Source of the DNA: Planctomycetota bacterium
Lineage (GTDB): Bacteria > Planctomycetota > Planctomycetia > Gemmatales > Gemmataceae
Assembly: GCA_016873095.1 (NCBI GenBank)
Contig: VGYC01000043.1
Coordinates: 1-43,682 of the forward strand
Direction of reading: 5' to 3'
Length of the DNA stretch: 43,682 nucleotides
Shown one piece after another: positions 8,421 through 21,599 of this stretch. The position numbers and the translations under genes are program-made. Within the stretch, counting starts at the first letter, position 1. Each line of letters opens with the position of its first letter. The notes below the pieces were generated by a model that saw only the letters and a program-made list of their open reading frames with translations, had not been told where the DNA came from and ran no database searches.

Positions 8421-10064
8421 TCAATTCGTCAGCGAGTCGAGCAGTTCCTTGGTGTTTTTCTTCAGTTCGGCGTGCGTCTTGGGGTTGGCGTTGATGGCTT
8501 GAAGTTGCATGACAACGTCCTTGCGGCGGAGGACCCGCTCGGCGCCCATGCGGCCGAGGGCCTGGATGGCCATGACGCGGCCGTCGCCGTAGCCTTCATC
8601 CTTTGCCGTTGTCGCGCTGCCCTTCGCTTCAACGCCTCCGGAACTGCCTACAGTGACCGCCTTGCCCTTGTAGATGAGTATCTGATCATTCTTGAGGAAT
8701 TCCAGCAGCACGTCCAGGACCTTGTCTGGCGCATCGGCGGCTTGCAGGACGCCGAGCATGTAGGCGCAGTCATACCGGAGCATGGTGTTCTTGTCGGTCT
8801 TGGCTTCGACCATGACCTTGCCAAACGTGGGATAGACACCGGGGAAGTTGCCGAGGTTGAGCTTGTGAACGCGCAGCGCCCAGACGATGCGCTCGCGGAC
8901 AAGTGAATGGTCCTTTGGGTTCTCGAGAACGCGGAGCAAGCTGGGAACCGCGTCCTCGGCTTCCTTGCGCGGCCCGATCTTGGCCAGGGCCGTTGCCGCT
9001 TCGACGCGTGCTTCCGCGTATTCACTGGTATTGGCCAGCAGCTTGACGAGCGGCCCGATGGCGGGCTCCGCCTTTTCGCCGATGCCGCCCAGCGCCAGCG
9101 CGGCGTAGCGGCGCACCTCCTTCTCGGGATCAGCCAGGGCCTTGATGAGCGGACTGACCGCGGAAGCGGCGGCATCGCCCAGGTTGCCAATGGCGGCCGC
9201 AGCTTGCGGCTTCAGCTCCGCATCGCCGTCACGCAGCGCCTCGAGCAAGATCGGCAATGCCGGCGCTGCCTCGGGGCCACCGATGTTCGCCAGCGTCAGG
9301 GCCGCGTTTCGCTTAACCTCCGGGTCCGCGTCCGCCAGCGCCGGCTTGATCAGCACGGCGATCTTGCCGTCCTCCGAAGTGACGATCTTGTTGAGCACGC
9401 TCAGGGCGGCGATGCGCAGCGCGGAATTGTCGATCTTGCAGCAGGCGACGAGTTCGTCGAGAGCGCCGCGTGCCTCCTCGGGGTCCAGGCGTCCCAGCGA
9501 GCCGGCGGCGTCGCGCTGGACGAGGATGTCGCTATCCTTGAGCGCCTTCTTGAGGCCCTTCACGGATGCAGCGCCGATTCGTCCGAGCGCCCAGGCAGCG
9601 TTTTGCCGCACCGTGACATTGGGATCATCCACGGCCGTCTCCAGGGCTGCCAGCGCAGCCTTGGCGTCCGGGCCGAACTTGCCCAGGGAAAGCGCCGCGC
9701 TCCGCCGCACCAGTGGATCGGTATCCTTGGCAAGGGCCTGCGTGAGGGCCTGGACAAGATCCGGATCTTCGAGCGCTTTGAGGGCGGCACGGCCGATGTC
9801 ACCCAAGGCCAAGGCCGCCGCCTCGCGGACCGAGCCGGCCTTGTCCTCGCGCAGCGTCTTTTTCAGGTCGTTGATCGCGGATGACGCCGAGCTGCCGAGT
9901 TTGCCGAGCGCGAAGGCGGCGCTGCGCCGCGTCTTTTCGGCCTTGCCTTCCTTCAGTTGCTTTTGCCAGGCATTGGCGTCGCGCCCGAGAAAGGTCTGTC
10001 CACGCGCGCCGCCAACGCTCGCTACCAGCAACCCAGCGACAACGAGCAGTCGAGTACCAACCAT
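8421..10064 (-). CDS. Exported HEAT-repeat protein
   Basis: Start at ATG 10064 is supported by AGGAGG about seven bases upstream and by an immediate signal peptide (MVGTRLLVVAGLLVASVGG, cleavage near GARGQ). The upstream extension to 10139 lacks both. The mature protein begins with FLGRDANAWQKQLKEG and then carries roughly a dozen HEAT/PBS-lyase-type repeats of about 38 residues, each with the pattern VRRSAALSLGKFG followed by a second helix such as AKAALAALETAVDD. Repeats run from about residue 40 to 375; the C-terminal 170 residues have weaker repeats. These solenoids bind proteins; no enzymatic residues are visible. It is preceded at 74 bases by a second HEAT gene in the same direction and followed by a small membrane protein. 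Periplasmic scaffold is the likely role. Confidence 0.85.
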   Translation of the reverse strand: MVGTRLLVVAGLLVASVGGARGQTFLGRDANAWQKQLKEGKAEKTRRSAAFALGKLGSSASSAINDLKKTLREDKAGSVREAAALALGDIGRAALKALEDPDLVQALTQALAKDTDPLVRRSAALSLGKFGPDAKAALAALETAVDDPNVTVRQNAAWALGRIGAASVKGLKKALKDSDILVQRDAAGSLGRLDPEEARGALDELVACCKIDNSALRIAALSVLNKIVTSEDGKIAVLIKPALADADPEVKRNAALTLANIGGPEAAPALPILLEALRDGDAELKPQAAAAIGNLGDAAASAVSPLIKALADPEKEVRRYAALALGGIGEKAEPAIGPLVKLLANTSEYAEARVEAATALAKIGPRKEAEDAVPSLLRVLENPKDHSLVRERIVWALRVHKLNLGNFPGVYPTFGKVMVEAKTDKNTMLRYDCAYMLGVLQAADAPDKVLDVLLEFLKNDQILIYKGKAVTVGSSGGVEAKGSATTAKDEGYGDGRVMAIQALGRMGAERVLRRKDVVMQLQAINANPKTHAELKKNTKELLDSLTN

Positions 10065-10138
10065 GAAAGAACCTCCTGCGGCCGCAAGCTCTGAAATGAA
10101 TTCAAGATTGAAGAATTGAAAACGACTCAGTGCTGGCA

Positions 10139-11332
10139 TCAGTCGTCGGTCTTGGTCTTGCTTTTGCCTTTGTCCTTCGTCTTGTCCTTGGTGTTATCCT
10201 TCGACTTGTCCTTGGTGCGTCCCTCGATGGTGTCTATGACCATCTCGGCAAGCTTTTTCATGGGGACGGGGGCCTTGGGATCGGCGACAACGGACTTGAT
10301 GGCGGGCACAGCGGACATGGCTGCCCCCTCCATGCGCCCCAGCGCCCACAGGCTGGTCATGACCACATCTGTCTGCTTGTCCTTGAGGGCGGAAGTGAGG
10401 GGAAGGACGGCGCTCTTGGCCTTGGGCCCGCAGCTGCCAAGCGCCTGCGCCGCCTGCACGCGAACGAGCGGGTCGTGGTAGTCCAGCATCTTGGCGATGC
10501 TGGCCAGACGGGATTCGCTGAACTCGTTGGCGAGCGACATGACCGCCATGTGCGCCCAGATGCGCACCGCCGGCTCCGCTTCCCTGGTCGTCGAAACAGG
10601 ATCGAGGTATTGAATGAGCTGCTTCTGGTGCGAAGTGGCGGCGCCATGGCCGAGGCGCCCAAGCGATTGCACGATCGCCAGGCGTACGGCCGAAGTCGGC
10701 TCGATGCCGAGAGCCTTGCCGAGACCGACGATGGCATCGATGGAGGGAACCTTCTTGCGCGTATCCTGGCCAACGGAACCCAGGGCCATCGCCGCCGCTT
10801 GCCGGGTCTCCCAGGTGCCACGATCGCGCAGCGTCGTCAGCAGAGAGGGGATGGCGGGGGCCGCCGCTGGACCCAGCTTGCCCAGAGCGAGTGCGGCCTG
10901 CGTACGCACGATTGCCTGGCTATCGTTCAGGAGGCGGTTCAGCACCTTGATCGCCCGCTCGACGTGCTTGGGCTGAGGATCGTCGAAGCTGTTGAAGATG
11001 TTGCCCAGAGCCATGGTGGCGTTGACTCGGATGCTGATATCGATCGGCGCGCTGGGAGAGTGCTTCTCCAGTTCGGCAAGCAATGCCGGGATGGCTTCAT
11101 AGGAGCGAGCGCCGAAATTCTGCACAGTCTGGATCGCCACTTCTCCCTTGCTGCGATCCCTCGAGGCGATGGCCTTGATCCATTCCTCTACGGACTTGCC
11201 GGCGAATTCCGTCAGCGTCGGCTCCTCGGAAGTCTTCTTGTCTTTTTCTTTCGTGCCGGCTTTCTGCGCCGCCGCCGGATCGGAGAAGGCAACGATGCCG
11301 ACCATGAAGGCAACTGAAAGAAAATAACGCAT
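10139..11332 (-). CDS. Exported HEAT-repeat protein with Lys/Asp-rich tail
   Basis: A 397-residue protein starting at ATG 11332 with a signal peptide (MRYFLSVAFMVGIVAFSDPA, cleavage near AAAQ). After a charged linker, the segment TEFAGKSVEEWIKAIASRD resembles the opening of the neighbouring HEAT protein. HEAT repeats follow from about 60 to 360, for example VRTQAALALGKLGPAAAPAI and VRVQAAQALGSCGPKAKSAV. The last 25 residues are a low-complexity Lys/Asp/Thr tail built from repeats of KDKTKD, which could contact nucleic acid or acidic polymers or be a disordered linker. It is first in the run of minus-strand genes 11332-8065. Paralogy with the next gene suggests an old tandem duplication. Confidence 0.85.
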   Translation of the reverse strand: MRYFLSVAFMVGIVAFSDPAAAQKAGTKEKDKKTSEEPTLTEFAGKSVEEWIKAIASRDRSKGEVAIQTVQNFGARSYEAIPALLAELEKHSPSAPIDISIRVNATMALGNIFNSFDDPQPKHVERAIKVLNRLLNDSQAIVRTQAALALGKLGPAAAPAIPSLLTTLRDRGTWETRQAAAMALGSVGQDTRKKVPSIDAIVGLGKALGIEPTSAVRLAIVQSLGRLGHGAATSHQKQLIQYLDPVSTTREAEPAVRIWAHMAVMSLANEFSESRLASIAKMLDYHDPLVRVQAAQALGSCGPKAKSAVLPLTSALKDKQTDVVMTSLWALGRMEGAAMSAVPAIKSVVADPKAPVPMKKLAEMVIDTIEGRTKDKSKDNTKDKTKDKGKSKTKTDD

Positions 11333-15675: not shown

Positions 15676-16086
15676 CGGTCTTCGTGGGCGACGCTGCCAG
15701 CGTTGCGGCGTGCATGCCGGTTGGGGCATTGCACGTTCCGCGCGGCGCGTTCAGAGCGAATCCGTGAGTGTGCGTTTCTGGCTGCGGCATTGTGCTGCGC
15801 GATGGGCGTGGCGTTCTGAGCCCACATCGTGGCTGGAAGGCGAACTGCCTTTCTGAAATCCGCACGCGTGGGCCGACGCTTCGGCGCCGAGTCTGTAATA
15901 CCATTATCATCAAGCCGTTGCACTTCACCTGGCCGTCTTTACGATACTGCGTCCTTGCAGGCGGACAGGCAAGTGAACGGGGTCGTTCGCCGCCAAACGA
16001 GTTCGTGATGGCCGAGCCTTTCCAAGCGATTTCAGCCGGGGCGGCCGTCACCGTTTTCGTCCCCATTGGGCACAGGAGGCAGCGCC
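15676..16086. other. 411-base intergenic region
   Basis: No convincing gene is seen here: the open frames on both strands lack signal, start context or recognisable sequence. It contains a short perfect hairpin GCCGA-CGCT-TCGGC at 15872-15885 and, further downstream, a possible promoter for the hydrolase-propeller gene. Confidence 0.5.
15918..15945 (+). promoter_or_regulatory. Candidate promoter of the hydrolase-propeller gene
   Basis: TTGCAC at 15918-15923 and TACGAT at 15940-15945 are 16 bases apart, about 140 bases ahead of the start at 16087. The match to a sigma-70 consensus is partial. Confidence 0.25.
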
Positions 16087-18351
16087 ATGAAGTTGCTGAA
16101 GATCATTGGGGCCCTGACCGTTGGCCTGGCCGTGTCTGCGCCTGTCAGCGCCGGTGGACAACAGGGCCACGAGAGCCAAGTTCTGCAGACGCCGGGTGGA
16201 GTGCGGTTCGGTATTCTGGGCGCCACGGGCCGTGTTCCCGCGCCAATCCTGTTTGTTTTGTCCAGCACTTTGGAGGTTTCACTTGGGGACAAGGCCTATG
16301 TGGAATGCGGCACAATTCTGGCCAAGCATGGTTTCCTTTGCGTTTCGGTCGATCTCCCATGCCACGGCAAGGAGCGCAAAACGGATGATGCGGACGGCCT
16401 CGACGGCTGGAGGGCGCGCGTGCAGAAAGGGGAGGCACTGACCACCGAGTTTTCGGCCCGTTGTTCCAAGGTGCTGGATCATTTGATTGAGCAAGGTTAT
16501 GCCGATCCCCAGCGGGTTTGCGCTTGCGGCACGTCGCGCGGTGGATGCATGGCCCTGCACTTTGCCGCCGCCGATCCGCGCGTGAAGGTCGTCGCGGCGT
16601 TTGCCCCCGTCACCAATCTGCTTGCACTTCATGAATTCGCCGGGACGAACAAGCACGCCGCCACCAAGGCGCTGGCGCTTGCGAACCATGCCGACAAGCT
16701 GGCCGGGCGGCCAATTTGGATCTGCATCGGCAACAAGGATGATCGCGTCGGCACGGATGACGTCATCGCCTTCAGGCGCCGGCTGACCGCCGCCACGGTC
16801 GCCCAGGGCAAGGCTGTCCCCGTCGAGTTGCACGTCATGCCCACGGTCGGCCATGCCATCCATGCGAGAGCGCACGCAGAAGCCGCGGCCTGGATCCTGG
16901 CATCGCTCCCGAAACGCAAACCGCAGATTGCCGAAGTGCTGGCGATCGGCAATCGCCTCGAGTTGTTCGTGGACGACAGGCTGATCGACCGCATGCAGGG
17001 GGCCAACCTGGTGCTGCATCAACCCGTGCCCCGCGAAATCGCCCTGAAAATGGATCAACCGTGGGAACGGGTCTGGGACGAATTGCCGGACGCCGAGCGC
17101 AAGAAGCAGATCGCGCGCGGCGTCTGGAGCGGCCCGACTCCGATTGGGTTCACGTCGGTCATGAAGGATAGCGATGTGTATCGCTTGTACTACACGTGGG
17201 ACCGCAGCGATCAGCCATCCATGACGGGCTATGCCGAAAGCCGCGACGGCATTCACTGGACCAAGCCTAAGCTGGGCATCGTCGATTTTCGTGGATCGAA
17301 GGCCAACAACCTGATCCTGTCAGAACACAAGATGTGGGCTTTCGCCCCCTTTCGCGACGCCAATCCGAAGGCCAAGCCGGAAGAACGGTACAAGGCGCTT
17401 GCTGGCGGCCCTCCGCTGGTCGCCTTCGTCTCGCCCGACGCCATATACTGGAAAAAGCTTCGCCAAGAGCCGGTGCTGACCGACGGCGCGTTTGACTCGT
17501 TGAATGTCGCATTCTGGGACACCGAGCGCAAGCAATACGTCGCCTACTATCGCGATTACTATCCGTCGGGAGTCGCCGCCTACGAGGCCGCTAACCTGGA
17601 TGGCGTCAAGTTCAATCGGGACATCAAACGTGCCACGTCCACCGACTTCGTTCACTGGACGAAAGGAGAGTGGCTCGACTACGGCGGGCCGCGCGAGCAT
17701 CTCTACACGAACGGGATCACTCCTTACTTTCGAGCGCCCCACCTTTACGTCGGGTTGCCCATGCGTTTCCTGTTCAATCGTAAACGGATCGCGGACCATC
17801 CGTACGAGGGACTCTCGGACGCAGTGTTCATGAGCCGTCGTGACGGCAAGCACTGGGACAGACGTTTCATGGAAGCCTTCATCAAGCATGGCTCGGAGCC
17901 CGAAAACTGGACGGAGCGGAATCCCCTGCCGACATGGGGTGTGGTGCCCACCGGTCCGGCGGAAATGTCGATGTACTGGGTCGAGCATTTTCGACATCCG
18001 ACGATTCGGCTCCGCCGCGGCACGCTGCGCACCGATGGCTTCGTATCCCTGCGCGCCGGCGCTGCAGGCGGGCACATAGTGACCAAGCCCTTGACGTTTA
18101 CCGGCGAGCGCCTGGTGCTCAACTACGCCACCTCGGCCGCGGGGAGCGTGCGTGTCGAGGTTCTGACACCCGCCGGCGAGCCGATCTCTGGACTTTCGCT
18201 CGAGCAGGCCCCGGAATTGTACGGCGATAGCATAGCGGAGGAGTACCGCTGGAAGTCCAAGGGCGCGCTTGGCAAGTGGGCGGCCAAGCCCGTTCGCTTG
18301 CGGCTCTCCCTGAAGGATGCCGACGTCTACTCTCTGCGCTTCACTCCGTGA
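16087..18351 (+). CDS. Exported alpha/beta hydrolase fused to a GH43/GH32-like beta-propeller
   Basis: ATG 16087 is fixed by AGGAGG at 16074-16079 and by the signal peptide that follows (MKLLKIIGALTVGLAVSAPV, cleavage near SAGG). Residues about 35-275 are an alpha/beta hydrolase of the dienelactone hydrolase/prolyl-oligopeptidase-like type: nucleophile elbow GTSRGG with Ser150, acid Asp218 or Asp219 in GNKDDRVG, and His256 in VGHAIH. Residues about 285-650 look like a five-bladed glycosidase propeller: LFVDDRLIDR, then YRLYYTWDRS, YAESRDGIHWTKPKLG, WDTERKQYVAYYRDY. The last 100 residues form a beta-sandwich. The catalytic carboxylates of the propeller cannot be assigned with confidence. The combination suggests removal of an ester (for example acetyl) and handling of a glycan by one secreted protein. 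It appears monocistronic. Confidence 0.8.
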   Translation: MKLLKIIGALTVGLAVSAPVSAGGQQGHESQVLQTPGGVRFGILGATGRVPAPILFVLSSTLEVSLGDKAYVECGTILAKHGFLCVSVDLPCHGKERKTDDADGLDGWRARVQKGEALTTEFSARCSKVLDHLIEQGYADPQRVCACGTSRGGCMALHFAAADPRVKVVAAFAPVTNLLALHEFAGTNKHAATKALALANHADKLAGRPIWICIGNKDDRVGTDDVIAFRRRLTAATVAQGKAVPVELHVMPTVGHAIHARAHAEAAAWILASLPKRKPQIAEVLAIGNRLELFVDDRLIDRMQGANLVLHQPVPREIALKMDQPWERVWDELPDAERKKQIARGVWSGPTPIGFTSVMKDSDVYRLYYTWDRSDQPSMTGYAESRDGIHWTKPKLGIVDFRGSKANNLILSEHKMWAFAPFRDANPKAKPEERYKALAGGPPLVAFVSPDAIYWKKLRQEPVLTDGAFDSLNVAFWDTERKQYVAYYRDYYPSGVAAYEAANLDGVKFNRDIKRATSTDFVHWTKGEWLDYGGPREHLYTNGITPYFRAPHLYVGLPMRFLFNRKRIADHPYEGLSDAVFMSRRDGKHWDRRFMEAFIKHGSEPENWTERNPLPTWGVVPTGPAEMSMYWVEHFRHPTIRLRRGTLRTDGFVSLRAGAAGGHIVTKPLTFTGERLVLNYATSAAGSVRVEVLTPAGEPISGLSLEQAPELYGDSIAEEYRWKSKGALGKWAAKPVRLRLSLKDADVYSLRFTP

Positions 18352-18590: not shown

Positions 18591-21500
18591 CTATTGCGGC
18601 GCGAAGCCTCGTCGCATGGTGTTCTCCGTGATGGTTCGCGGGAGGACGAATTGCAGGAGGTAATCCGGGCCGCCGGCCTTCGAGCCGATGCCGGACAGCT
18701 TGAAGCCGCCGAACGGCTGGCGATGCACGAGGGCGCCGGTGATCTTGCGGTTGATGTAGAGATTGCCGACGCGGAACTCGCGGCGAACTCGGCGAATGTT
18801 GGCGGGGCTGCGCGAATACAGCCCGCCGGTCAACGCGTACTCTGTCCCGTTGGCCACGGCGAGCGCCTCGTCAAGATCGCGAGCTTTGATGACCGCCAGC
18901 ACCGGGCCAAAAATCTCTTCCTGGGCGATGACTGCGCTGGGCGAAACGTCGGCAAAAATGTGCGGACCAACGAAGTATCCTTCGTCGGCGAACGGGCCGA
19001 CATCGCCCGCATGAACCAGGCGCGCTTCCAGCTTGCCCCTGGCGATGTACCCGAGAATGCGATCACGGGCGTCGGCGTCGATGACGGGGCCGACGGCGCA
19101 GCCGGGATCCTCGGCGGGAGCGATCTTCAAGCTCTTGGTGGCTTCCACGAGTCGTTGCAGGAACGCATCGTGCAGCGGTTCCAGAACGATGGCACGCGAG
19201 CAAGCGGAGCATTTCTGTCCCTGGTAACCGAAGGCGCTGGCGACAACGCCGTGGACGGCCTCGTCGAGATCGGCATCGTCATCGACGATGATCGCGTTCT
19301 TGCCGCCCATCTCGGCAAGGACGCGCTTGACGTGGTCCTGTCCCGGCGCCATGTCGGCCGCCTGGCGATTGATGAGCAGGCCGACGCCTCGCGAACCGGT
19401 GAAGGCGATCAAGGCCACGTCGGCATGCTGAACCAGCGTCGGACCGATCTCCTCGCCGACGCCGGGCAGGTAGTTGGCCACGCTGCTAGGCAGTTCAACT
19501 TCTTGAAAGATCTCCATGAGCTTGGCGGCGACGACGGCAGATTGCTCGGCCGGCTTCATCACCACTGTGTTGCCGCTGACGAGCGCCGCCGTCGTCATGC
19601 CGCACAGGATGGCCAGCGGGAAGTTCCACGGGGCAATGACCACGACGACGCCGCGCGGCTCGTAGAAGTACTCGTTCTCTTCGCCGGGCACATCCGCGTG
19701 CTTACCTCTGGACAGGCGCAGCATGTCGCGTGCATAGTACTCGCAGAAATCGATGCTCTCGGCGACATCGGCGTCGGCCTCGCGCCAGGGCTTGCCGCAC
19801 TCGAGGGCCTGCCAGGCCGCCAGTTCAAATCGCCGTCGCCGCATTACCGCGGCGACACGAATTAGGTAGTCGGCCCGTGTTTGGACCGGCGTGTCGCGCC
19901 ATGCCGGAAACGCGCCCCAGGCCGCAGCAACGGCTTCATTTGCCTGACTCACGGACGCGCGACCGCAGCGACCGACGATTTCGCGACAATGCGATGGATT
20001 GACCGAATCGATGTACGCCGCCGTTGCCACCGCCGTCTTGCCGATCACAGGCGGATAGGAACGACCAAGTTGCGCCCGCACCTGCGCCAGCGCCGCGTGC
20101 ATCGTGCCACGCGCTTCTTCCTGGCTGAAGTCGGTGAGCGGTTCGTTGACGAATGCCCTCACCCCCGACCCCTCTCCCAGAAGGAGAGTGGAGAGTTGGG
20201 TCGACCCGTCTCCAGAAGGGAAAGGGGAAGGTATGATCGCGCCGTGACCATGCAGATTTGGATTCATGAGCAATTGCTCCTCGGGCACGTGCTCGGTGAA
20301 GCTGGCCCGCAAGAATGAATCGTTGGCGGTGTTTTCCAGAAGCCGGCGGACCAGGTAGGCCATGCCCGGCAGCAACTCGCCATAGGGAGTGTAGACGCGG
20401 ACGCGCTGGCCCATGGCGGCAAGGGCGTCCTTCACCGGGTCGGCCATGCCGTAGAGCATCTGGATCTCGAGCGTGCCCGGCGGCAGACGCAATTCCTGGG
20501 CGACGGCGAGGGCGTGGGCGAGACTGCGGACATTGTGACTGCCGAATGCCGGCCTCAGCCAGCGATGGCTCTCGAGCAGGAAGCGCGTCAGCTTCTCGTA
20601 ATTGACGTCGGTCTGCCATTTGTGCTCGAAGACGGGGACGGGCCAGTTCTCCTGAGCCGCCCTGACAGTTTCGTAGTCCCAGTAAGCGCCCTTGATGAGC
20701 CGCACCCAGACAGGCGTGCCGCGCTCCTTTGCCCAGGCGGCGAGTGCGTGCAGGTCGCGTTCACCATCGCGGAGGTATGCCTGGATGGCGATGCCGACGT
20801 CAGGCCAGTCGCGAAACTCGTCGTCCTCCAGCACCTCGCGGAAGATGCGCAGCGTGACGTCCTTGAAGGCGAACTGCTCCATGTCGACGTTGATGAAGGC
20901 GCCATGCCGTCGCGCCGAGCGCAGGATCGGCCGAAGACGATCGCGCACTGCCTGGCTAGTTCCGTCCGGATCAATGGGGTCGAACTGGCTGTAGATGGAG
21001 CTGAGCTTGATGGAAACATTGACACGTGGCAACGGTCCGTCAGGGCCATGATCGATCTGGTCGATGGCCGGAAACGCCGCCACCGGGCCGGTTAAACCCT
21101 CGATGAGGTGGATGTACTCCTGCTGGTGCCGAACGGCCTCGGCCTCGGTGATGGTCGCCTCGCCGAGCAGATCGACGGTGAAGGCGAGCTTGCGGCGGCG
21201 CAAGCGCACCACGGCCGCCAGCGCCTCGTCGAGATTGGTCCCGGCGATGAAACGCCGCGCCAGCCGCGTGGCGTTGAAGCGTGCTGCCCAGGCGAGCAGA
21301 TTGACGGCCGGGCCATGGCGCGGCAGCCAGCGCAGTCCGCGGCGTGCCCAGCCAGGCAGTGCGTCGCCGGCTTCCGCGAAATATTCGCGAAGATGCCGGC
21401 TGATCGACTCGGGGGAGCGCAGCACGGGAAGCACGTCGATGAAGCGGAAGAGTTGCAGCTTCACCGCCTCGTCCGCCATCGACCATTCCATGAGGCGTTC

Positions 21501-21599
21501 ATCCAGCCAGCCTGGCGTGAGTGGCAAGGCCCCGCGTCCGTCGAGCCGGGCAAACAGCTCGCTTCCGAAAGCGCGGGTTAGGGTTTCCAGGTCCGGCAT
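18591..21599 (-). CDS. putA: Bifunctional proline dehydrogenase / 1-pyrroline-5-carboxylate dehydrogenase
   Basis: This 1002-residue enzyme oxidises L-proline to glutamate in two steps. The FAD-dependent proline dehydrogenase barrel spans about 110-445, with RVNVSIKLSS near 190 and RLIKGAYWDYE near 300. The NAD-dependent aldehyde dehydrogenase half spans about 505-980: APWNFPLAI, the ELGGK-like AEMGGKNA, catalytic Cys797 in GYQGQKCSACSR and EEIFGPVLAV. There is no N-terminal ribbon-helix-helix DNA-binding domain, so it is not an autoregulatory PutA. Between the halves, residues about 455-482 (PSPFPSGDGSTQLSTLLL and flanks) are encoded by a palindromic repeat inserted in frame. ATG 21599 lacks a clear Shine-Dalgarno. 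It is transcribed divergently from the kinase gene. Confidence 0.95.
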   Translation of the reverse strand: MPDLETLTRAFGSELFARLDGRGALPLTPGWLDERLMEWSMADEAVKLQLFRFIDVLPVLRSPESISRHLREYFAEAGDALPGWARRGLRWLPRHGPAVNLLAWAARFNATRLARRFIAGTNLDEALAAVVRLRRRKLAFTVDLLGEATITEAEAVRHQQEYIHLIEGLTGPVAAFPAIDQIDHGPDGPLPRVNVSIKLSSIYSQFDPIDPDGTSQAVRDRLRPILRSARRHGAFINVDMEQFAFKDVTLRIFREVLEDDEFRDWPDVGIAIQAYLRDGERDLHALAAWAKERGTPVWVRLIKGAYWDYETVRAAQENWPVPVFEHKWQTDVNYEKLTRFLLESHRWLRPAFGSHNVRSLAHALAVAQELRLPPGTLEIQMLYGMADPVKDALAAMGQRVRVYTPYGELLPGMAYLVRRLLENTANDSFLRASFTEHVPEEQLLMNPNLHGHGAIIPSPFPSGDGSTQLSTLLLGEGSGVRAFVNEPLTDFSQEEARGTMHAALAQVRAQLGRSYPPVIGKTAVATAAYIDSVNPSHCREIVGRCGRASVSQANEAVAAAWGAFPAWRDTPVQTRADYLIRVAAVMRRRRFELAAWQALECGKPWREADADVAESIDFCEYYARDMLRLSRGKHADVPGEENEYFYEPRGVVVVIAPWNFPLAILCGMTTAALVSGNTVVMKPAEQSAVVAAKLMEIFQEVELPSSVANYLPGVGEEIGPTLVQHADVALIAFTGSRGVGLLINRQAADMAPGQDHVKRVLAEMGGKNAIIVDDDADLDEAVHGVVASAFGYQGQKCSACSRAIVLEPLHDAFLQRLVEATKSLKIAPAEDPGCAVGPVIDADARDRILGYIARGKLEARLVHAGDVGPFADEGYFVGPHIFADVSPSAVIAQEEIFGPVLAVIKARDLDEALAVANGTEYALTGGLYSRSPANIRRVRREFRVGNLYINRKITGALVHRQPFGGFKLSGIGSKAGGPDYLLQFVLPRTITENTMRRGFAPQ
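20155..20235. repeat. Dispersed palindromic repeat inside putA
   Basis: The plus strand reads CCCTCACCCCCGACCCCTCT followed by CCCAGAAGGAGAG, a pattern typical of widespread intergenic palindromic repeats in bacteria. CTCTCC at 20172-20177 and GGAGAG at 20183-20188 form a perfect six-base stem with a five-base loop. A second, decayed copy of the motif (GTCTCCAGAAGGGAAAGG) follows at about 20208-20225. Its length keeps the putA frame open. Confidence 0.7.

Follow-up and report, generated by a model that had tools for sequence, protein, structure and literature searches.

Our main finding is that a single reading frame of a planctomycete of the family Gemmataceae encodes an alpha/beta hydrolase with a conserved Ser-Asp-His triad, a beta-propeller and a C-terminal beta-sandwich, and that hydrolases of the same subfamily are recurrently fused or closely linked to such propellers in other genomes. 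We read the product as a carbohydrate esterase that is secreted and whose propeller engages a glycan, at a probability of about 0.47; this is the best explanation because of the two folds and the sugar-type genes that neighbour related hydrolases. The protein would then be a serine esterase of the DLH/S9-like alpha/beta hydrolase kind, secreted and borne on a five-bladed propeller and a beta-sandwich. The propeller would hold a sugar chain, polymeric or oligomeric, that is acylated or lactonised, and offer it to the esterase, which would take off the ester group by means of Ser150, Asp218 and His256. An earlier note on this DNA had put forward acylated polysaccharides as substrates, and the substrate may be of that kind.

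Three domains in one reading frame

The window, that is, the whole stretch of DNA analysed (43,682 nucleotides), is the entire contig C43 of an 8.36-Mb draft genome in 548 contigs. The features of the fusion gene are as follows:

16074..16079, + strand, Shine-Dalgarno sequence AGGAGG, 7 nt 5' of the ATG (sequence read)
16087..18351, + strand, CDS of the hydrolase-propeller-sandwich fusion, 754 aa, called P0001 (reading frame and full-length model)
16087..16155, + strand, signal-peptide-like N terminus, residues 1-23, MKLLKIIGALTVGLAVSAPVSAG (sequence only)
16177..16905, + strand, alpha/beta hydrolase, residues 31-273 (Pfam, alignment, Foldseek)
16534..16536, + strand, Ser150, predicted nucleophile, in GTSRGG, a GxSxG elbow (83/83 rows)
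16738..16740, + strand, Asp218, predicted triad acid, in NKDD (80/83 rows, 3 gaps)
16852..16854, + strand, His256, predicted triad base, in GHAIH (78/83 rows, 5 gaps)
16906..16950, + strand, short junction, residues 274-288 (boundary at which separately encoded hydrolases end and separately encoded propellers start)
16951..18051, + strand, propeller of GH43/GH32/GH130 fold, residues 289-655 (AlphaFold2 model, Foldseek, VIA-align)
18052..18348, + strand, C-terminal beta-sandwich, residues 656-754 (strands in both models, 6n1a alignment)

The frame runs uninterrupted from the ATG at 16087 to the stop at 18351, and the arrangement of three domains in one chain that the earlier note had proposed is borne out by this frame, by Pfam and by confident models. 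A wrong start codon was considered and rejected, the Shine-Dalgarno sequence and the ATG being in agreement. An assembly chimera was rejected as well, given the single open frame, a GC content like that of the flanks (58-66% over the gene and 61-65% in the flanks, in 500-base windows), the precise junction and the presence of similar fusions in other assemblies; this rejection is not a formal one, because the genome is a 548-contig draft. The signal-like start makes the export assumed by the earlier note plausible, and the protein is probably exported; residues 1-26 have a pLDDT below 50 in the full-length AlphaFold2 model. Five neighbouring proteins of the window scanned against Pfam (an efflux protein, PutA, an M28 peptidase and two HEAT-repeat proteins) included no sugar enzyme, which counts against our reading. 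The gene for PutA, a bifunctional proline dehydrogenase and aldehyde dehydrogenase, lies at 18591-21599 (- strand), convergent with the fusion gene, and adjacent genes for HEAT-repeat proteins of 572 and 397 aa occupy 8424-11332 (- strand).

The hydrolase half matches Peptidase_S9 best in Pfam (PF00326, E 2.3e-13, 50.6 bits against a cut-off of 22.6), then DLH (PF01738, E 1.3e-9, 38.4 bits against 21) and Esterase (E 1.5e-7, above its curated cut-off). The full triad is found in 78 of the 83 aligned hydrolases, window protein included, the remaining five being gapped at those positions. The earlier note had placed the triad at Ser150, Asp218-219 and His256; Asp219 drops out, as it is an Asp in just 5/83 rows. 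The invariance of GTSRGG, identical in 83/83 rows, is partly by construction, because the motif sits in one of the two patterns used to find the loci. Asp218 and His256 are absent from both patterns, and all three triad residues are invariant (11/11 rows) in an alignment that predates the pattern-based scan. Judging from these residues, the alignment and the fold match, the hydrolase half looks catalytically complete.

The propeller and the sandwich were modelled together from 57 sequences (pLDDT 91.8, pTM 0.91). The full-length model has a similar pLDDT (90.4) and a pTM of 0.74, because of which the orientation of the domains is less certain; its strands over residues 653-753 form the C-terminal sandwich. 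Foldseek matched the propeller model to GH43, GH32 (1uyp) and GH130 enzymes. Among the 50 VIA-align matches listed, it superposes on structures from families GH130, GH43, GH62 and GH159, with Z 19.9-23.4 across 241-295 residues and 6-17% sequence identity. The propeller is thus predicted to be of the GH-clan type with five blades, a number taken from alignment and fold match.

The structure prediction that the earlier note had proposed as a check therefore upholds a 'GH43/GH32-type propeller' as regards the fold, and not as regards family membership. Residues 289-754 gave zero Pfam matches even at E<=10, and so no match to GH43 (PF04616), GH32 (PF00251) or GH130 (PF04041). A ready-made family name was rejected, as Pfam was empty and the sole NCBIfam match scored 15.7 against a cut-off of 500. 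Among the 57 family members aligned (alignment A1, from which fragments and weak rows were left out), Pfam at E<=0.01 found BNR_2 in six and GH32N in one (GH32 E 4.7e-5).

One of the top fold matches is 6n1a, the GalNAc deacetylase of F. plautii (Z 23.0 over 295 residues, 3.5 A), which aligns through the sandwich (model residues 23-462). The F. plautii enzyme uses a metal. The propeller and sandwich might accordingly resemble a metal-dependent deacetylase, or be some other non-glycosidase hydrolase, so that both halves would deacylate. This we regard as very unlikely: a weak profile match (E 1.5e-4) speaks for it, but that match weakens to E 0.016 once blade 1 is removed, and 6n1a is not singled out by the superpositions, since rows within Z 1 are tied.

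Residues of the putative propeller active site

In GH43 enzymes, the catalytic residues are two Asp and one Glu in a funnel. To place the catalytic residues of GH32, 12 GH32 proteins found in related genomes were combined into a profile, which hhalign aligned with the propeller family. Profile and family align over the whole length (probability 85%, E 6.1e-6 with a library of one), and the alignment was repeated with five other members as anchor, six anchorings in total. Two acidic residues are of interest:

17065..17067, + strand, Glu327, close to the site aligned with the GH32 nucleophile (acidic in 50/57 rows: Glu 39, Asp 11)
17494..17496, + strand, Asp470, aligned by hhalign with the Asp of the GH32 RDP motif (57/57 rows)

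In all six anchorings, the RDP Asp falls on Asp470 and the acid/base Glu on Arg549. The nucleophile Asp lands on no carboxylate in any of the six, but four anchors lack an insertion, and in these an acidic residue, at position 327 or next to it, lies within two residues of the nucleophile site. The insertion, of about 22 residues right after Glu327, is common to the window protein and its nearest relative. These placements are to be read with care: in ungapped HMMER alignments the RDP match is displaced by a few residues, and profile alignments can slip by a few residues where blades are concerned. For GH130, the Asp of the EDP motif stands opposite Asn473 of FDSxN in one HMMER alignment, and hhalign against seven GH130 proteins gave nothing informative.

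Among 48 close members, 17 columns are conserved to 80% or more and yet differ in the window protein. We consider six of these, picked for their position in blades 1-3 and written with the family residue first, which 44-46 of the 48 keep in each case: Y355F, T357S, R370T, H417W, N418A and Q472L. The nearest relative, a stand-alone propeller 62% identical to that of the window protein, has the first five residues changed as well and keeps Gln472. The six residues would line the pocket; together with the insertion they would amount to a remodelling of it toward binding, altered specificity or unusual catalysis.

The earlier note had allowed that the propeller might be a binding domain only. That reservation is reasonable, given the Arg in place of the acid/base Glu and the lack of a carboxylate exactly at the nucleophile position. 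A purely binding propeller is nevertheless given less weight, because of the acidic residue near the nucleophile site in the insertion-free anchors, and catalysis stays possible because most members have this acid in addition to Asp470. From the residues alone, glycan binding or altered catalysis seems likelier than standard GH43/GH32 cleavage.

These observations bear on a serious alternative to our reading, namely that both domains are catalytic: the propeller would act on glycosidic bonds, as a hydrolase or a phosphorylase whose active site is rearranged, and the protein would both deacylate and cut its glycan. Several lines point that way. The fold is that of GH43 and GH130 enzymes, at Z of about 20-23; the NCBIfam model of beta-1,2-mannobiose phosphorylase (GH130) weakly matches 16/57 members at E<=0.01 (best 2.1e-7); and two more propeller carboxylates, Glu537 (44/57) and Glu626 (48/57), are conserved in addition to Asp470 and the acid at 327. 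There are precedents in known esterase-GH43 enzymes, and Lac161_ORF10, described as five-bladed with weak kinship to DUF377, hydrolysed lactose (PMC5342196). The Arg at the acid/base position argues against it, as do the insertion beside Glu327 and the changed residues in the window protein and its nearest relative. We therefore hold a second enzyme in the chain to be possible but doubtful, and prefer a propeller that engages the glycan for the esterase.

Recurrent pairing of hydrolase and propeller

Hydrolase loci were collected from named genomes with two hydrolase patterns, one of which contains GTSRGG. The best 80 of 90 come mainly from Planctomycetota and Verrucomicrobiota, with a few from Jiangella, Chitinophaga and others. 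Two loci with long frames (L231 and L232, neither fused) were added to give 82; near-copies and two loci on one contig (L215, L217) were kept, and L230 and L233-L239 are repeats and were not counted.

Six of the 82 hydrolases are fused to a propeller, 17 have one within 450 bp (14 of them co-directional and 3 on the opposite strand), 16 have one within 7 kb and 43 have none, the last count being an argument against our reading. For the 63 loci with 1.5 kb of sequence on both sides, the corresponding numbers are 5, 12, 13 and 33. Fusion or linkage within 450 bp was thus found for 23/82 hydrolases versus 28/395 control ORFs, these being the other ORFs at the same loci as found by a crude caller (Fisher p 6e-7, related genomes being treated as independent). 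In genome G367, hydrolase and propeller are adjacent genes in the same order as in the fusion. Separately, locus L101 (11787-14336, genome G445) holds, beside its main hydrolase, a more distant one (profile E 2e-7) about 27 bp 5' of a propeller gene on the same strand.

At the genome level, the hydrolase subfamily was found in 9 of the 392 phylum genomes searched (E<=1e-20), versus 49 of 170 in one other family. All nine are also among the propeller-positive genomes, of which there are at least 51/392; the resulting Fisher p of 6e-9 is optimistic because 51 is a lower bound, two candidates having been scored per genome.

The propeller family itself is large and found mainly in Planctomycetota and Verrucomicrobiota. 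P0001 is matched in 48 of 61 Gemmataceae genomes, its own included, at E<=0.001 (weak hydrolase matches included), and the 51 or more genomes of the phylum match it at E<=1e-25. The phylum matches listed cover the propeller or its parts, a few also reaching the hydrolase end, and most lie in frames that leave no room for a second large domain. The family is expanded in some genomes, with 38 P0001-matching segments in G413 and 24 in G121, a few of them hydrolase.

Other domains are found N-terminal to these propellers: a BNR-type domain, GDPD, CBM_4_9 (below its cut-off) and Abhydrolase_3. The genome under study has a second fusion of hydrolase and propeller on contig C247 (L005:331-2412), where the hydrolase is of the Abhydrolase_3, HGGGF type (E 8.7e-58) and the frame stops early, before the sandwich. 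Elsewhere in this genome, GDPD (E ~3e-31) is joined to a distant family propeller on contigs C25 and C169 (L008:367-2727 and L009:487-2733), and the sialidase-like BNR_2 (E 4.3e-10) precedes another on contig C5 (L011:1-2394). Six loci (L016, L019, L020, L021, L024 and L047) have a domain of about 300 aa ahead of the propeller; BNR_2 matches it weakly in L047 (E 0.014) and not in L016, which the other four resemble by eye. Kinship was also considered with 18 beta-propeller proteins of Paludisphaera, called homologues of AGW45552 (PMC5352709). They probably belong to a different family, because AGW45552 is described as a Piru_Ver/HEAT/cytochrome protein (PMC5342196); this judgement comes from the descriptions in the two papers.

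Both trees are quick ones, with SH-aLRT support only. In the hydrolase tree (84 rows, two sequences below 180 aa omitted and four added), a starred branch parts the window protein from six other fusions, and parsimony requires 6 changes of the fused state, 3 of them forced; the fused label clusters no more than expected by chance, since shuffled labels needed as few changes in 66 of 500 trials. In the propeller tree (96 rows, propellers below 330 aa or more than 3 kb off omitted), fusions lie in three places, with 4 changes, 3 of them forced. The window protein groups with its relative of 62% identity, five others form a second group, and the third place is that of L205. The last (L205:5237-7714, from a Verrucomicrobiales MAG) has the reverse order, the propeller being N-terminal and the GTSRGG hydrolase C-terminal. 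The trees alone are no proof of separate origins, because the changes can be gains or losses. Separate origins are likely, because the propeller partners differ and one order is reversed, and so the pairing likely arose more than once.

This recurrence also bears on whether the fusion has any function as such. Two secreted proteins could have been joined neutrally or by accident, their halves not cooperating, in which case a peptidase or a lactonase might make up the hydrolase half. Peptidase_S9 is indeed its best Pfam match, and not one match in 60 other genomes of the family spans both halves. The five nearest hydrolase relatives (L146, L147, L210, the genome's own paralogue on contig C67, which is outside the 82 loci, and L149) are separate genes without a propeller nearby, one of them at a contig end; in G121, taken to be the source of L147, the nearest propeller and the second-nearest hydrolase are on different contigs. 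Against this stand the close linkage and the fact that hydrolases of one subfamily are fused to propellers lying in three parts of the propeller tree, once in reverse order, and we consider an accidental joining quite unlikely.

The genes around the hydrolases fit, weakly, with sugar or sugar-acid metabolism. Of 136 flanking proteins, 105 were scanned, with no control set; the 31 omitted were those above about 600 aa and others, known propeller genes among them. In the 25 of 71 families listed, the matches included Gfo/Idh/MocA oxidoreductases (6), DUF1501, PhyH and the regulators GntR and FCD (4 each), BNR_2 (3), and the enolase superfamily, the SASA carbohydrate esterases and BD-FAE (2 each).

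A wider proposal, which we offer tentatively and think rather unlikely as a whole, is that the propellers form a large uncharacterised sugar-active family with a non-canonical site (Asp470, Asn473, Arg549, His552 and mostly Glu327 with His417-Asn418), repeatedly coupled to a GTSRGG esterase, deacylation and cleavage together being one step of a sugar-acid pathway. If true, it would open a way into a large set of putative planctomycete sugar enzymes that are still unassigned, with the esterase partner as a readily assayed domain that points toward the substrate. Because the fusion recurs, once in reverse order, a comparison of full-length with split proteins could test functional coupling.

Comparison with known systems

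The hydrolase half shares its fold with YjfP, PET46 and the CE7 acetyl xylan esterases, which are among the solved folds closest to it by Foldseek, but it does not match the CE7 family (PF05448, AXE1), scoring 16.7 bits against a cut-off of 21. The propeller resembles GH130, GH43 and GH32 enzymes (9gph, 4qqs, 1uyp) in fold, at Z of about 20-23 for GH130 and GH43; it differs from them in its low identity (6-17% among the matches listed) and in the Arg at the GH32 acid/base position. The beta-galactosidase Lac161_ORF10, from a cosmid assigned to Verrucomicrobia, has a five-bladed propeller too, with weak family kinship only, and the description with which we compared it mentions no esterase fusion (PMC5342196).

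Our literature search found no esterase-propeller fusion in planctomycetes, which is no proof of absence, and no description of this propeller family, of the esterase subfamily or of their repeated joining. The kind of protein is not new, because fusions of esterases with glycosidases are known (PMC8417218). BeCE15A-Rex8A is described as having an N-terminal carbohydrate esterase, a short link and a glycan enzyme, as in the window protein, but with GH8 in place of the propeller and a glycosidase part proven active (PMC8417218). BeGH43/FAE of Bacteroides eggerthii, a multicatalytic arabinofuranosidase-feruloyl esterase, likewise carries a GH43 domain and an esterase in a single chain; it is a GH43 member from a xylan-type locus as described there, whereas the window protein belongs to another lineage, has no GH43 membership and was seen in no such locus (PMC8417218).
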